Notes under the pieces: generated by a model
The model's database searches: none
The model's input: the letters and a program-made list of their open reading frames with translations, nothing else
What the model was told of the DNA's origin: nothing
Assembly (NCBI GenBank): GCA_002840405.1
Contig: PHAR01000006.1
Location: 1 to 64,000, forward strand
Direction of reading: 5' to 3'
DNA: 64,000 bases
From: Deltaproteobacteria bacterium HGW-Deltaproteobacteria-8
Lineage (GTDB): Bacteria; Desulfobacterota; Desulfovibrionia; Desulfovibrionales; Desulfovibrionaceae
Program-made: the position numbers and the translations under genes
Shown here: piece after piece, positions 1,055 to 53,530 of the stretch
How positions within the stretch are numbered: position 1 is the first letter of the stretch
How the letters are laid out: the number at the start of each line of letters is the position of its first letter

Positions 1055-1924
1055 ATGAATGAAGTGTATCAGGACAGGCCCAAGGAGTTTTTTGAGTCGA
1101 TATTGAAGAAGGTTCCGTCCAGCGTCATCGGGGTCGTGGTGGCGGCGATCATCCTGCTGGTGTTCTTCACCCCCTGGGTCCAGGTGGGCGCTGGGCAGCG
1201 TGGCATCGTCTTGAACTTCGGCGCCGTGCAGGACAAGGTCCTGGATGAAGGCCTGCACCTGCGCATCCCGGTGATGCAGGAAGTGGTGCTCATGGACGTG
1301 AAGGTTCAGAAGGTCGAAACCGACGCGGCGGCAGCCTCCGCCGACCTCCAGGACGTCAGCTCCCGGGTGGCCCTGAACTACCACATCATCCCGGACAAGG
1401 CCAACGTGGTTTTCCAGAAGATCGGCGTCAACTTCCGGGAGCGCATCATCGACCCGGCCATTCTTGAGGTCGTCAAGGCCGTCACGGCCAAGTACACGGC
1501 GGAGGAGCTCATCACCAAGCGCCCGGCCGTGAGCGAGGCCATGCGCGTGACCCTGATGGAGCGCCTGGGCCACAACAACATCGCCGTGGACGCGTTCTCC
1601 ATCGTCATCTTCAGCTTCTCCAAGGTCTTCACCGAGGCCATCGAGGCCAAGCAGACGGCGGAGCAGCTGGCCCTGAAGGCCCGGCGCGACCTGGACCGCA
1701 TCAAGATCGAGGCCGAGCAGAAGATCACCGCAGCCAAGGCCGAGGCCGAGTCACTGCGTTTGCAGAAGGCCAACATCTCGCCCGACCTGCTCCAGCTGCG
1801 CAAGATCGAGGCCAACATGAAGGCCATCGACAAGTGGGACGGCGTGCTGCCCCAGGTGACGGGCTCCGGCGCGATCCCGCTCATCGGCCTGGGCGACCTG
1901 CAAAAGAGCGCTCCGGCCAAGTAG
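1055..1924 (+). CDS. SPFH/band 7 (prohibitin-like) membrane protein
   Basis: A 289-residue protein with a single N-terminal membrane anchor (about residues 21-42, SSVIGVVVAAIILLVFF), then a band 7 domain starting at VQVGAGQRGIVLNFGAVQDKVLDEGLHLRIP. A helical, charged coiled-coil segment (EAKQTAEQLALKARRDLDRIKIEAEQ, split across about 205-240) follows. Order and length match bacterial prohibitin/HflK-like scaffold proteins, which form membrane rings and often regulate proteases such as FtsH. No partner gene lies next to it. The start at 1055 is chosen because AGAGGAG sits at 1041-1047; an upstream in-frame start has no such site. Confidence 0.88.
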   Translation: MNEVYQDRPKEFFESILKKVPSSVIGVVVAAIILLVFFTPWVQVGAGQRGIVLNFGAVQDKVLDEGLHLRIPVMQEVVLMDVKVQKVETDAAAASADLQDVSSRVALNYHIIPDKANVVFQKIGVNFRERIIDPAILEVVKAVTAKYTAEELITKRPAVSEAMRVTLMERLGHNNIAVDAFSIVIFSFSKVFTEAIEAKQTAEQLALKARRDLDRIKIEAEQKITAAKAEAESLRLQKANISPDLLQLRKIEANMKAIDKWDGVLPQVTGSGAIPLIGLGDLQKSAPAK

Positions 1925-1955
1925 CCTCGCAGCGTTCGTCGATTACGGAAAGAAT

Positions 1956-1986
1956 AAGGCCGGGAGGGTTTCCCCTCTCGGCCTTT
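1956..1986. terminator. Bidirectional terminator hairpin
   Basis: AAGGCCGGGAGG and a near-complementary CCTCTCGGCCTTT arm flank a short loop between convergent genes, with T residues on both sides, so it can serve both the SPFH gene and the acetyltransferase gene. Confidence 0.75.
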
Positions 1987-1999
1987 CCTGCGTGGGTGG

Positions 2000-2488
2000 T
2001 CAGGCGTTGCGCTCCAGAAAGATGAGGGTGAGCGCGGAGCTGACGGTCTCGCTGCGCACGGGCAGGTAGCCCAGGCGCTGGTACAGGCGGAGATTGCCCG
2101 CGCTCTTGTGGCCGGTGAAAAGCTGGAAGCGCCGGGCGGCTGGAAAGCTGGCCTCAACCGCGCGCATCAGCGCGGAGCCGAGGCCCTGGCGCTGGTGGCC
2201 GGGGTGGACCATGAGCCTGCCGATGCGGCAGAGCTCGCTGTCCAGGCCCGCCCGGACAGAGCCCACGAGAGCAGCGCCGGACATGGCCTTGAGCACCAGG
2301 TGCGTGGGAAATTCCGCGCGCAGGTCCTCCAGGGTTTGGGTCAGCGGCGGGATGCCCCAGTCGTCGTACAGCCTGGCCTCGGACTGGTAGGCCAGGCGCT
2401 GCAGGGCCAGGATGGCCTCGGCGTCGGCCAGGTCGGCTGGCATGATCTCCGCCTGGGCCATTGCAAACCGCTGTGTCGATGGCTCCAT
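2000..2488 (-). CDS. GNAT family N-acetyltransferase
   Basis: A 162-residue single-domain acetyltransferase. The acetyl-CoA binding motif A is visible as RLMVHPGHQRQGLGSALM, followed by the typical C-terminal NLRLYQRLGYLPV. The first part (ADLADAEAILALQRLAYQSEA) is the usual GNAT N-terminal helix. The substrate cannot be read from sequence. The ATG at 2488 is preceded by a GGGAGGAAGG Shine-Dalgarno stretch. The gene follows malic enzyme on the same strand, but the terminator at 2514-2547 separates them. Confidence 0.88.
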   Translation of the reverse strand: MEPSTQRFAMAQAEIMPADLADAEAILALQRLAYQSEARLYDDWGIPPLTQTLEDLRAEFPTHLVLKAMSGAALVGSVRAGLDSELCRIGRLMVHPGHQRQGLGSALMRAVEASFPAARRFQLFTGHKSAGNLRLYQRLGYLPVRSETVSSALTLIFLERNA

Positions 2489-2513
2489 GCCTTCCTCCCT
2501 GTCCTGCCCACGT

Positions 2514-2547
2514 AAAAGGCCCGGAGTTTCCCCCGGGCCTTGTTGTT
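2514..2547 (-). terminator. Rho-independent terminator of malic enzyme gene
   Basis: Read leftward, AAGGCCCGG and CCGGGCCTTTT arms form a stable hairpin directly followed by a short T run. It lies just past the malic enzyme stop codon. Confidence 0.75.
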
Positions 2548-2568
2548 CCAGCGATCTCGTCGTCGGTG

Positions 2569-3885
2569 CTACAGGTCGTAGCCGAAGGAGTCGACGATCA
2601 TCTTGGTGCGGGCCTTGGAGGCGGTCATGCGCGTGGCGAGGTCCTTCTTGTACTGCTTGATGTCCAGCTTGATGGTGGCCACGCCGGAATCCATGGCCGC
2701 CTGGGCCACGGCCGGGGACACCCACTCGAGCACGCGCGGGTCCAGCGCCTTGGGGATGATGTAGTCAATGCCGAACTTGAGCTCCTTGACGCCGTAGATG
2801 GCGCAGACCTCGGGCGACACGGGCTCCTTGGCCAGGGCGGCCAGGGCCTTGGCAGCGGCCAGCTTCATCTGCTCGTTGATGACCTTGGAGCGGACGTCCA
2901 GCGCGCCGCGGAAGATGAAGGGGAAGCCCAGCACGTTGTTGATCTGGTTGGGCGTGTCCGAGCGGCCGGTGGCCATGATCAGGTCGGTGCGGGCGCCCTT
3001 GGCCACGGAGTACGCGATCTCCGGGTCCGGGTTGGCGCAGGCGAAGATCACGGGGTGCTTGGCCATGGACTTGACGTTCTCGGCGTTGATGACGTCCTTG
3101 CCGGACAGGCCCAGGAACATGTCCGCGCCGGTCATGGCCTCGGCCATGGTGCAGGCCTTGCTCTGGGCGTAGTAGGTCTTTTCGGCGTTCATGTCCGTGC
3201 GGCCGGTGTGCAGCAGGCCCTTGGAGTCGAACATCCAGATCTGGCTCTTGTCCAGGCCCATGGCCTCGTAGAAGCGCGAGCAGGAGATGGCTGCGGCGCC
3301 GGCGCCGGAGACAACGACCTTCAAGTTCTTGATGTTCTTGCCGCTGATCTCGAGCACGTTCATGAGGCCCGCGCCGGAGATGATGGCCGTGCCGTGCTGG
3401 TCGTCATGGAAAACGGGGATGCCCATTTCCTTGATCAGCGTCTGCTCGATCTTGAAGCATTCCGGGGCCTTGATGTCCTCAAGGTTGATGCCGCCGAAGG
3501 TGGGCTCCAGCATCTTGCAGAACTCGATGACCTTGTCCGGGTCCAGCTGGCGGATGTTCAGGTCGTAGACGTCGATGTCGGCGAAGATCTTGAAGAGCAC
3601 GCCCTTGCCTTCCATGACCGGCTTGCCGGCCTCGGGGCCGATGTTGCCCAGGCCGAGGACGGCCGTGCCGTTGGAAACCACGGCCACGAGGTTGCCCTTG
3701 TTGGTGTATTCATAAGCCTTCTCCACGTCGGCGTGGATGGCCCGGCAGGCGTCGGCCACGCCGGGGGTGTAGGCCATGGACAGGTCACGCTGCGTCTCGC
3801 AGGGTTTGATGGACACGACCTCAAGCTTGCCCTTGCGCTTCATTGAGTGATACTTGAGGGCTTCTTCCTTGGTGAACAGCGCCAT
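2569..3885 (-). CDS. NAD(P)-dependent malic enzyme (decarboxylating)
   Basis: A 438-residue cytoplasmic enzyme converting malate to pyruvate and CO2 with NAD(P) reduction. Family landmarks in order: catalytic Tyr39 in [26 protein letters not shown] with Lys94 as the likely catalytic lysine; metal ligands in [10 protein letters not shown] (Glu136/Asp137) and [10 protein letters not shown] (Asp161/162); and the dinucleotide-binding [10 protein letters not shown] near residues 191-200. Length fits the short bacterial form that lacks the phosphotransacetylase-like extension. It is a monocistronic gene with its own terminator. In sulfate reducers it links C4 acids to pyruvate. Confidence 0.95.
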
Positions 3886-50178: not shown

Positions 50179-51141
50179 ATGCCCATGGACCAGAAGAGCA
50201 TACTCCTTGAGAGCGGCACCAACGAGCTTGAGATCATCGAGATGTTCCTGCTTGAGCCCGGAGCGGGAGGCGTGCCCGAGCCCCAGTACTTCGGCGTCAA
50301 CGTGGCCAAGGTGCTGGAGATCATCGAGGCTCCGGCCCAGCTTGAGCCCTCGGCCTCGTCCACCCATCCGAGCTTTCTTGGGGTCATTCCCCTGCGCGAC
50401 ATGGTCCTGCCTGTGGTGGACCTGTCCATCTGGCTGGGCGTGAACCGCGCCCCCACCCCGCACGAGACCGTGCTCGTCACCGAGTTCAACGGCGTGAAGT
50501 CCGGCTTCCTGGTCTCCGGCGTGACCATGATCCACCGCGTGGGCTGGGCCGACGTGGAGCCCCCCAGCCGCATGCTGGCCGAGCTGCCGGGCAACTGCAT
50601 CACCGGCACCGTTTGCCTGGGCGATCACTTCGCCCTGCTGCTCGACCTGGAGCGCGCCCTGGTGGAGCTGGGAGCGGTGAACGTGGACCTGCCCGACCAT
50701 GCCGTGGAAAAGGACGCCGAGCACCCCCTGCGCATCATCCTGGTGGACGACTCCACCTCGGTGCGCTTCCTGCTCAAGCGGAATTTCGAGACCGCCGGGT
50801 TCGAGGTCCAGGCCTTCAACAATGGCGAGGACGCCTGGAACCACCTGGTGGAGCTGAAGGCCGAGGCCGAGCTCCAGCGCACGCCCATCACCAGCCTGCT
50901 CGACGCCGTGATCTCCGACGTGGAGATGCCGCGCATGGACGGCTACACGCTGACCCGCAACATCAAGGCCGACAGTGAGCTCTCGAAGCTGCCCGTGGTG
51001 CTCTTCTCCTCGCTCATCTCGCCCTCGCTTTTGCACAAGGGCCAGAGCGTGGGGGCCGACGCCCAGATCACCAAGCCTGAGTTCGGCGGGCTGACCACCC
51101 AGGTGCGCGAGATCATCGAGAAGAGAAGGGCGCAGCAATAG
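50179..51141 (+). CDS. cheV: Chemotaxis protein CheV (CheW-receiver)
   Basis: A 320-residue protein with a CheW-like domain (~1-165: FGVNVAKVLEIIEAPA, GVIPLRDMVLPVVDLSIWLGV) and a receiver domain (~190-315). The receiver carries IILVDDSTSVRFLLKRNF, the phosphorylatable Asp in VISDVEMPRMDGY and Lys in QITKPEF. CheV couples chemoreceptors to CheA and adapts signalling. No other chemotaxis gene is next to it; the upstream neuB is functionally unrelated unless flagellar glycosylation links them. ATG 50179 has GGGAGCG immediately before; MDQKS at 50185 is possible. Confidence 0.93.
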   Translation: MPMDQKSILLESGTNELEIIEMFLLEPGAGGVPEPQYFGVNVAKVLEIIEAPAQLEPSASSTHPSFLGVIPLRDMVLPVVDLSIWLGVNRAPTPHETVLVTEFNGVKSGFLVSGVTMIHRVGWADVEPPSRMLAELPGNCITGTVCLGDHFALLLDLERALVELGAVNVDLPDHAVEKDAEHPLRIILVDDSTSVRFLLKRNFETAGFEVQAFNNGEDAWNHLVELKAEAELQRTPITSLLDAVISDVEMPRMDGYTLTRNIKADSELSKLPVVLFSSLISPSLLHKGQSVGADAQITKPEFGGLTTQVREIIEKRRAQQ

Positions 51142-51167
51142 GCGCGCATTTTTCTCCCGTCAGGGGC

Positions 51168-51197
51168 TTGACGGACCCCGGCTTCCGGGGCTAGTCA
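51168..51197 (+). promoter_or_regulatory. Candidate promoter of the ilv leader transcript
   Basis: TTGACG (51168-51173) with TAGTCA (51192-51197), 18-base spacer; the spacer includes a small CCCCGG/CCGGGG hairpin. It is the only clear candidate ahead of the leader peptide. Confidence 0.4.
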
Positions 51198-51237
51198 AAA
51201 ATCAGGAACCAAACCCGCAACCTGCGAGACCCATGAC

Positions 51238-51339
51238 ATGAACCGCATCGCCGCCACCGCTCTGAGCCTATCCCAGGCCCTCCGCGCCGACGCCATTGTA
51301 GCGGTCGTCGTAGGAGTCGTAGGCAAACGCGTGTCGTAG
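51238..51339 (+). CDS. Branched-chain leader peptide of ilvBN attenuator
   Basis: A 33-residue open frame: it starts with [20 protein letters not shown] and continues with VAVVVGVVG before a short basic end and TAG. The valine-rich segment contains seven valines, one Ile and three GTA codons that are otherwise rare here, and Leu/Ile codons (CTA, CTC, ATT) earlier. It precedes a transcription terminator by 28 bases and the ilvB gene by 125, exactly the arrangement of ribosome-mediated attenuation in which uncharged tRNA-Val or tRNA-Ile/Leu stalls translation and prevents termination. Start-site context is weak. Confidence 0.72.
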
Positions 51340-51366
51340 CGGTCCAGGTCCTTTACAAGGCAACCC

Positions 51367-51399
51367 AAACCCCCGTCGGCGCGCGCTGGCGGGGGTTTT
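51367..51399 (+). terminator. Attenuator terminator before ilvB
   Basis: AAACCCCCG and CGGGGGTTTT are complementary arms around a GC-rich loop, then TTCGCG. It lies 28 bases after the leader peptide stop. GTAGCGGTC occurs at both 51298-51306 and 51335-51343 and could take part in alternative pairing. Confidence 0.7.
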
Positions 51400-51464: not shown

Positions 51465-53171
51465 ATGTTTGAAGGAAACGGCGCGGAACTTGTGGTCCGG
51501 CTCCTGGAGCGCCAGGGCATCCGGCGCATTCCCGGCATCCCCGGCGGGGCCAACCTGCCCCTGTACGACGCCCTGGGCACCAGCCGCCTCATCCGCCACA
51601 TCCTGGCCCGGCACGAGCAGGGCGCGGGCTTCATGGCCCAGGGCATGGCCCGCACCACCGGCCTCCCGGCCGTGTTCTTCGCCACCTCCGGGCCGGGCGC
51701 CACCAACACCCTCACCGCCATCGCCGACGCCAAGCTCGACTCCGTGCCCATCATCTGCATCACCGGCCAGGTGCCCAGCTCCATGATCGGCACGGACGCC
51801 TTCCAGGAGGTGGACATCTACGGCATGAGCCTGCCCGTGACCAAGCACAACTTCCTGGTGCGCAGCGTGGGCGACCTCGTGCACGTCATCCCCGAGGCCT
51901 TCCGCATCGCCCTGTCCGGCAGGCCCGGCCCGGTGCTCATCGACATCCCCAAGGACGTGCAGACCGCGCGCATCCGCCTGGCCGAGCTGCCCGAGCCCGG
52001 CGAGCCCGACCAGGTGGAGGCCCCGGACTCCCAGGCCATCAGCCAGGCCGCGCAGCTGATTTGCCGGGCCGAGCGCCCCATCCTGATGCTGGGCGGCGGC
52101 GTGGCCGCCTCGGGCGCTGCGGAGGCAGGGCGCAGGCTGGCCGAGGCCGCGAACCTGCCCGTGACCATGTCGCTTTTGGGCCTGGGCGCCCTGCCCGACG
52201 CCCACCCCCTGAACCTTGGCATGCTCGGCATGCACGGCACCCGCGCGGCCAACATCCTGCTGGAGGAGTGCGATCTGCTGATCGTGGCCGGGGCGCGCCT
52301 GGACGACCGGGCCACGGGCCGGCTGGAGCGCTTCTGCGCCGGGGCCAGGCTCATCCACATCGACATCGACCAGAGCGAGCTGGACAAGCTCAAGCTGGCG
52401 CACCTGGCCATCACCGCGGACGTGGGCGCGGCCTTTGCGGCGCTTTTGCCCCTGGTGGATGCGGGCAAGCGCAGCGAGTGGCTGGCGCGGGTGGCCCAGT
52501 GCAAGGCCGAGAACCCGCACACCTTCCCAGGCCTGGACAACCCGTTGGCCCCCTACGGCCTTGTCCGCTGCACCGGTGAGCTTCTGGGTGAAGGCGCCAT
52601 CGTGGTCACGGACGTGGGCCAGCACCAGATGCGCGCGGCCCAGGCCTACCCGGACCTGAAGCCACGGGCCTGGCTGACCTCTGGCGGGCTCGGCACCATG
52701 GGCTTCGGCCTGCCCACGGCCATCGGCGCGGCCCTGGCCAACCCGGGCAAGCGCGTGGTCTGCTTCAGCGGCGACGGGTCCTTGCAGATGAACATCCAGG
52801 AGCTGGCCACCGCGGCCGAGACCGGCGCCAACGTGACCATCGTGCTGGCCGACAACGGCGGGCTGGGCCTGGTGCAGCAGCAGCAGGACCTGTTTTACGG
52901 GCGCAGGATCTTCGGCTCGGACTACCGGGTGCGCATCGACTTCGTGAAGATCGCCGAGGGCTTTGGCGTGCGCGCGCTGGACCTGAACGAGAGCCGCGAC
53001 CCCATGGCCGACCTGGAGCGGGCGCTCAAGCGCGAAGGCCCGTGCCTGGTGCGCGTGCCCGTGGCGGCGGAGGACAACGTGTACCCCATGGTGCCGCCAG
53101 GCGCGGCCAATATCGACATGATCGGCGGCGAAAACGGCTCGGAGAGCTGCGCCGCCCAGGGAGGGAAATAG
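51465..53171 (+). CDS. ilvB: Acetolactate synthase large subunit
   Basis: A 568-residue thiamin diphosphate enzyme for branched-chain amino acid synthesis. The catalytic Glu51 is in [13 protein letters not shown]; the ThDP-binding motif is [29 protein letters not shown] near the C-terminus. FAD-binding and central beta domains lie between. It condenses pyruvate with pyruvate or 2-ketobutyrate. Translation starts at 51465 with GAGGAGG. IlvN follows two bases after its stop. Confidence 0.95.
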
Positions 53172-53173
53172 CC

Positions 53174-53530
53174 ATGGCCAGCGACGCGAAGAAGGCAAAC
53201 AACGGCCACGCCACGAACGGCTTCATGGCCCTGCGGCTCACGGTGAACAACCACCCCGGCGTCATGAGCCATGTCTGCGGGCTCTTCGCCCGGCGCGCCT
53301 TCAATGTGGAGGGCATCCTGGTCACGCCGCAACAAGGCGGCGACACCAGCTGCATCTGGCTGGTGGTCAACTCTGACGAGCGCCTTGGGCAGATGATTCG
53401 CCAGGTGCGCAAGCTGCACGATGTGTTGGAGGTCCTGGCCTTTGAGGCCGACCAGAGCGCGCTTGCGCGCATGGACGAGTGCATGGCCGGCTGGGAGCAG
53501 GCCGGGCCCTGCGCCGAGACCGGGGCCTAG
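53174..53530 (+). CDS. ilvN: Acetolactate synthase small (regulatory) subunit
   Basis: A 118-residue ACT-domain protein: [34 protein letters not shown] is the valine-binding ACT motif and [13 protein letters not shown] the end of the fold. It sensitises IlvB to valine feedback. Two-base gap to ilvB, so translational coupling. No ilvC follows. Confidence 0.93.

Follow-up and report, generated by a model that had tools for sequence, protein, structure and literature searches.

A putative valine-reading attenuator of ilvBN in Desulfovibrionaceae with likeness to the ilvB attenuator of Escherichia coli

Valine-rich leader and terminator upstream of ilvBN

The window analysed in the present study is a stretch of 64,000 nucleotides from Deltaproteobacteria bacterium HGW-Deltaproteobacteria-8 (Desulfovibrionaceae; contig PHAR01000006.1, positions 1 to 64,000). 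On its forward strand lie ilvB (51465-53171), which encodes the large subunit of acetolactate synthase (AHAS) and matched NF006016 at 928 bits (cut-off 870), and ilvN (53174-53530), which encodes the small subunit with one ACT domain (ACT_AHAS_ss) and matched NF006036 at 141 bits (cut-off 128). We take these two models to represent the subunits of E. coli AHAS I; the tree described below agrees, placing the product of ilvB in the AHAS I clade.

Upstream of ilvB, an open reading frame at 51238-51339 of the same strand, which was present in the ORF list, comprises 33 codons followed by TAG and encodes a peptide of 33 aa with seven valines. The codons of these valines are, in order, GTA, GTC, GTC, GTA, GTC, GTA, and GTG, and the stretch GTA gcg GTC GTC GTA gga GTC GTA (51298-51321, forward strand), which is kept in relatives, is regarded as the valine control run. 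The Leu codons of the leader are CTG, CTA, and CTC, among which CTA is codon 11 (51268-51270, forward strand). Both GTA and CTA are seldom used in the 18 genes of the window that were counted (6007 codons), in which they account for 8 of 461 Val codons (1.7%) and 3 of 577 Leu codons, respectively; measured against these genes, the occurrence of at least three GTA among the seven leader Val codons has a p value of 1.7e-4.

The initial annotation of this DNA had described a short frame with seven valines and three GTA codons, the rarity of GTA in the window, and a terminator followed by the acetolactate synthase genes, all of which were found again in the present analysis. The Leu codons that it mentioned are also present, and the very rare CTA among them had not been named. 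Its view of the leader as short did not hold because 33 aa is an ordinary length for this kind, compared with 32 aa in the E. coli ilvB leader (32 residues when counted from its ATG in locus L011).

A probable promoter on the forward strand (51168-51196) consists of the -35 element TTGACG (51168-51173) and a -10-like TAG approximately 17-18 nt further on. TTGAC was found 161-200 nt 5' of the leader stop codon in 15 of the 15 loci examined (13 of the same genus and two of genus g29), and a sigma-70 scan gave no match. The Shine-Dalgarno sequence of the leader appeared to be weak by eye. On the minus strand beside the leader, two terminator-like sites were noted at 51130-51147 and 51214-51228. 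The gene directly upstream (50179-51141) encodes a CheV-like protein that combines CheW with a response regulator, and the end of the same protein also lies upstream in several relatives of the genus.

Beginning 28 nt after the leader stop codon, a hairpin of 13 bp (51368-51397; dG -25.0) ends in TTTT (51396-51399), two T of which lie inside the stem, and is followed by CGCG. The distance from its end to ilvB is 67 nt, and the ribosome-binding site of ilvB is left untouched. A simple terminator scan of the window, the rule of which was five T in eight, missed this hairpin. The 5' arm of the terminator, designated region 3, occupies 51368-51380, and the 3' arm (to 51397) with the TTTT, designated region 4, occupies 51385-51399; both assignments rest on the hairpin call and on covariation, and all of the regions are on the forward strand. 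Region 2 (51329-51342), GCGUGUCG-UA-GCGG, straddles the stop codon and was identified by pairing and covariation as the 5' strand of an antiterminator. It pairs with 51373-51384, namely, the 5' arm of the terminator and the loop, and two nucleotides of the stop codon UAG, U and A, are bulged in the region 2:3 helix. A 9-nt complement of region 3 at approximately 51282-51290 was also considered as the antiterminator and was rejected because it sits ahead of the Val run.

Conservation and exclusive pairing of the leader RNA

Relatives of the locus were defined by an ilvB match with E <= 1e-160, which was obtained in 110 of the 199 genomes searched in the same family. An ORF with at least five Val in 10 residues was present in the 600 nt 5' of ilvB in 96 of these 110 loci, compared with 2 of 110 on the reverse strand; the 14 relatives with fewer than five Val in 10 residues include genus g40, the leaders of which have three or four Val. 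Conservation of the peptide, on which the initial annotation had made its own proposal depend, is thus evident in the family. Gaps within the leader occur mostly in threes across the genus, as judged by eye. A GC-rich hairpin was found 18-35 nt (median 28) after the leader stop codon in all 110 loci. It is followed by T in 108 of 110 by a strict rule, while L149 and L153 fail the T rule and were counted by a relaxed rule, by which the hairpin of L152 was likewise re-picked.

Covariation was assessed in 68 non-redundant loci against shuffles that ignore relatedness. Regarding the terminator, 94.5% of cells are paired, the covariation score is 0.286 versus 0.149 for shuffled alignments, and both sides have changed in 10 of 13 pairs. 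The corresponding values for the antiterminator are 81.2% of cells paired and a score of 0.237, versus 0.192 for shuffled alignments and at most 0.105 for slid ones, and both sides have changed in 11 of 13 pairs versus a shuffle mean of 8.1. The antiterminator lies outside the common register in 20 of the 68 rows (fewer than nine of 11 pairs). Its values in the 48 in-register loci are 90.1% paired and 0.290 versus 0.212 shuffled, in a set that was picked for pairing and, thus, favours the structure. On average, region 2 makes 9.09 of 11 pairs with its own region 3 and 8.81 of 11 with the region 3 of other loci, and it hardly prefers its own because both are conserved. The fold of the entire leader is not better than that of shuffles (z -0.26), which by itself gives no support.

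The 16 loci of genus g8 (L155-L160, L162, and L165-L173) use the Val codons GTG and GTC rather than GTA. Region 2 in all 16 is located upstream of the stop codon, in the codons around a conserved Pro-Glu-Gly, and in each of them the stretch that pairs with region 3 starts 18-19 nt ahead of the stop codon's end. In this genus, the predicted switch was re-registered.

The effects of ribosome position were simulated by folding the RNA from the edge of the ribosome, which was set 12 nt after the start of the A-site codon, to the terminator loop. In the window, simulated stalls at Val codons 21, 23, 24, 25, and 27 gave 12 region 2:3 pairs and a stall at codon 28 gave 10, and no such pairs were formed with the ribosome at codon 32 or the stop codon. 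Across the 110 loci, region 3 was sequestered in 692 of 698 stalls at Val codons of the densest stretch, 12 of 110 at the last codon, and 8 of 110 at the stop codon. When the whole terminator was included in the fold, it won in every state tested, and, therefore, timing must decide between the two helices, as it does in the classical model. The ribosome-free fold of the window leader, a single fold of one sequence, paired region 2 with a possible region 1 (approximately 51247-51262, forward strand), and the terminator formed. With a stall at CTA in the window, region 2 made no pairs with region 3, although region 3 is counted as sequestered in every CTA stall. The idea that CTA stalls specifically favour read-through was dropped since region 3 was sequestered not only in 117 of 117 CTA stalls, but also with the ribosome at other Leu codons (177 of 192 stalls) or at other codons (2094 of 2505).

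Likeness to the enterobacterial attenuator and distribution in the phylum

A covariance model (R1), which was built from 48 loci of the window's family only, was run on 79 loci (L002-L080). It matched before ilvB in nine of nine enterobacterial AHAS I loci, including E. coli (L003-L006 and L009-L013), at 43.0-57.8 bits (E 2.6e-9 or better), and also matched L015 (44.6 bits) and L002 (43.4 bits). Weaker matches were obtained in L008 (34.0 bits, terminator part only), L018 (30.4 bits), L007 (29.0 bits), and L031 (28.1 bits), and nothing was found in L014 or L019 at E up to 1. In the window's own genome, the next best place elsewhere scored 26.4 bits.

The E. coli ilvB attenuator has region 2 GCGCCGTAG over the stop codon and the terminator AAACCCCGCCGGCGC, which are written in nearly the same letters as those of the window. 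The leaders of E. coli ilvB (ivbL) and of other enterobacteria also resemble that of the window in the Val run within approximately 32 aa, a CTA Leu codon before this run, and the AHAS I genes downstream. The Val codons of the E. coli ilvB leader are GTG and GTC, whereas Desulfovibrionaceae leaders mainly use GTA and GTC, and enterobacterial leaders have two or three CTA codons (nine leaders were read), whereas those of Desulfovibrionaceae usually have one. Since unrelated attenuators are not forced to share letters, common descent, namely, homology in nucleotide sequence with the E. coli ilvB attenuator, appears to be the best reading. The likeness to enterobacteria indicated in the initial annotation is, thus, closer than had been claimed, and extends, as judged with R1, to sequence homology.

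In a search of the phylum with R1, 31 of 395 genomes gave a match at E up to 1e-5. Among the 29 phylum loci examined, 16 have an AHAS I ilvB downstream (nine in the window's family and seven from five other families) and the other 13 are not followed by an AHAS I gene; one of these is located before ilvD (L259) and another before cimA (L273). The remaining 11 of 29 were rejected as attenuators because no leader with many branched-chain codons was seen and they resemble simple terminators. Since the highest score among them is 44.4 bits, R1 matches below approximately 45 bits need gene context.

In L259, which belongs to another family of the phylum, the same predicted attenuator at 1501-1592 (49.6 bits) with the Leu/Val leader RLALLGVGVGVRVLDAAVP precedes ilvD (1550-3091). 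The minus strand of L273 (family f31; R1 score 33.9 bits) carries the Ile-run leader MKKDIRAIIIINIIISFCIGGRGAV with nine Ile and four ATA; the leader and terminator are upstream of 1484, and the gene directly after the terminator (1484-3) is cimA, which encodes citramalate synthase of the isoleucine pathway (TIGR00977, 681 bits). The leader before cimA is likely an Ile attenuator. These ilvD and cimA cases suggest that the residue repeated in the leader matches what the downstream gene helps to make.

Regarding the history of the genes, 60 AHAS large subunits were placed in a tree, and the 41 AHAS I rows formed one clade (support 98/94), in which Desulfobacterota, enterobacteria, Rhodocyclaceae, and an Opitutaceae MAG are intermixed. 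The second AHAS of the window's genome (L082) falls outside this clade, and no such leader was found before the second AHAS gene or two further homologues of the same genome (a partial fourth, L085, was left out). The direction of AHAS I transfer was addressed in tests with groups that were named after the tree had been seen, in which Desulfobacterota as one clade was rejected with L264 and L265 (p-AU 0.004) and not rejected without them (p-AU 0.141). Contigs from MAGs, for example L018, may be misbinned. The excerpted text of PMC5727371, from which the term "attenuat-" is absent, describes a second, AHAS I-like copy in Desulfovibrio and infers horizontal transfer. The switch has probably accompanied the AHAS I genes, by inheritance or by transfer. 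Val-run leaders were also observed before ilvB genes that do not belong to the AHAS I clade, namely, those of a Fibrobacteres MAG (L031, 2379-2456) and of Breznakibacter of Bacteroidota (L023, 2202-2279), where the R1 matches are weak (28.1 and 20.4 bits, respectively).

Proposed mechanism and choice of control codons

In the mechanism that we propose, a ribosome translating the leader when valine is ample would reach the leader stop codon inside region 2 and cover this region, upon which regions 3 and 4 would form the terminator and transcription would end before ilvB. Under a shortage of Val-tRNA, the ribosome would stall within the GTA/GTC run, at a distance of 16-39 nt from the stop codon, leaving region 2 free; region 2 would then pair with region 3 before region 4 exists, and RNA polymerase would read into ilvBN. 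We infer the translation of the leader, the stalling, the termination, and the amino acids sensed.

The leader, the terminator, the conserved and covarying exclusive helices, the target genes, and the rare-codon bias are directly visible in the DNA, and the ribosome-mediated attenuation suggested in the initial annotation is supported by the conserved Val-run leader, the terminator, the covarying antiterminator over the stop codon, and the AHAS genes. With a probability of roughly 0.9, we consider the locus to be a ribosome-mediated transcription attenuator of ilvBN that reads the supply of valyl-tRNA, and probably that of leucyl-tRNA(UAG), and that shares its ancestry with the E. coli ilvB attenuator.

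The same terminator may instead be worked by a riboswitch or a protein-bound leader, with the ORF being incidental, and ppGpp riboswitches have been described in the excerpted part of PMC10272879 as controlling ilvB in some bacteria. However, the window contains no Rfam family at cut-off, and the leader gave six Rfam matches at E up to 10, each of which was far below its family cut-off and none of which was a riboswitch. What is conserved is, moreover, a coding run in which the codons vary, and the stop codon of the ORF is overlapped by the antiterminator; we consider this explanation to be very unlikely. We attach just as little weight to the view that the leader RNA acts at the level of translation, or through its peptide or as a small RNA, and not by terminating transcription. 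Termination would yield a short RNA anyway, and a trp leader peptide acts in trans elsewhere (PMC7298713, as excerpted), but the present hairpin ends 67 nt short of ilvB, clear of its ribosome-binding site, and the terminator and antiterminator covary. The coincidence of a chance ORF and a chance hairpin in GC-rich sequence might be considered because ORFs of such size are abundant in the window; conservation in 110 loci and covariation already refute it, and its probability is close to nil.

Returning to attenuation by a ribosome reading Val codons, the choice of codons was compared between leaders and ilvB in 30 loci with whole genes. GTA accounts for 115 of 229 leader Val codons versus 14 of 1197 in ilvB (Fisher p 1.5e-87) and CTA for 29 of 91 leader Leu codons versus 3 of 1798 in ilvB (p 2.3e-37), with p values that ignore relatedness. 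In the 110 leaders, CTA is present in 100, and 90 have exactly one; it occurs in frame 117 times and out of frame 28 times, and its neighbours and positions vary, which points to a codon being kept rather than a fixed DNA motif. GTA is nearly absent from the leader Val codons of genera g8 (2 of 161) and g22 (4 of 113), both of which mostly keep CTA (10 of 16 leaders in g8). The genome tRNAs comprise those for Val with anticodons UAC, GAC, and CAC and those for Leu with UAG, UAA, CAA, CAG, and GAG (one weak tRNA locus, L238, is unconfirmed); with this set and ordinary wobble, GTA is expected to be read by the UAC isoacceptor and CTA by the UAG isoacceptor.

According to the excerpted text of Elf and Ehrenberg (PMC1183508), the leader codons of E. 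coli are those most sensitive to limitation and CUA is the best Leu control codon, with the caution that rarity by itself does not explain the choice of control codons. The leu attenuator of E. coli and Salmonella, in the same excerpt, is similar to the present leader in having the rare Leu codon CUA as a control codon and differs from it in that Leu codons are used rather than a Val run and the operon is a different one. The predicted control codons of the present leaders agree with the selective-charging theory.

Leaders of a comparable kind are present in other bacteria. The ilvBNC operon of Corynebacterium presumably encodes an AHAS of another type than that of the window. Attenuation has been proposed for its leader (ilvB-II motif), which is similar in that a uORF rich in branched-chain codons precedes ilvB, and reporter assays were made (PMC10272879, as excerpted). 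The ilvB-OMG motif, which occurs in various phyla, also has a uORF rich in branched-chain codons before ilvB according to the same excerpt; no Rfam match of that name was obtained in the window leader at E up to 10, in an Rfam copy unchecked for the presence of the motif. Among the matches listed from the open PMC literature, no paper on an ilvBN leader in Desulfovibrionaceae was recognized by its title and the start of its abstract, and the main text of PMC2965389 contains neither Desulfovibrio nor ilvB.

As a tentative proposal, to which we give somewhat less than even odds, the AHAS I operon may have crossed phyla with its switch, and the sensor codons may have been retuned in each host to the most starvation-sensitive tRNA isoacceptors, namely, GTA in most of the Desulfovibrionaceae genera sampled and GTG/GTC in g8, g22, and enterobacteria. 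The rare CTA, usually one and usually before the Val run, may have been kept as a second checkpoint, for leucine or for timing.

The locus appears to be homologous to a textbook system, in a group for which the open-literature matches listed contain no report, and the new aspects are the homology of the switch across phyla and the codon pattern. Nucleotide homology extends the range of the enterobacterial ilvB attenuator to Desulfobacterota, some Rhodocyclaceae, and single MAGs from other groups, and a switch read by the ribosome can, thus, apparently persist when it is moved from one phylum to another. The 110 leaders represent a natural experiment in the choice of control codons. Considering the enrichment of GTA and CTA, and the two genera that are nearly without GTA yet mostly retain CTA, the selective-charging theory, which was derived from E. 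coli, becomes testable in other tRNA pools.
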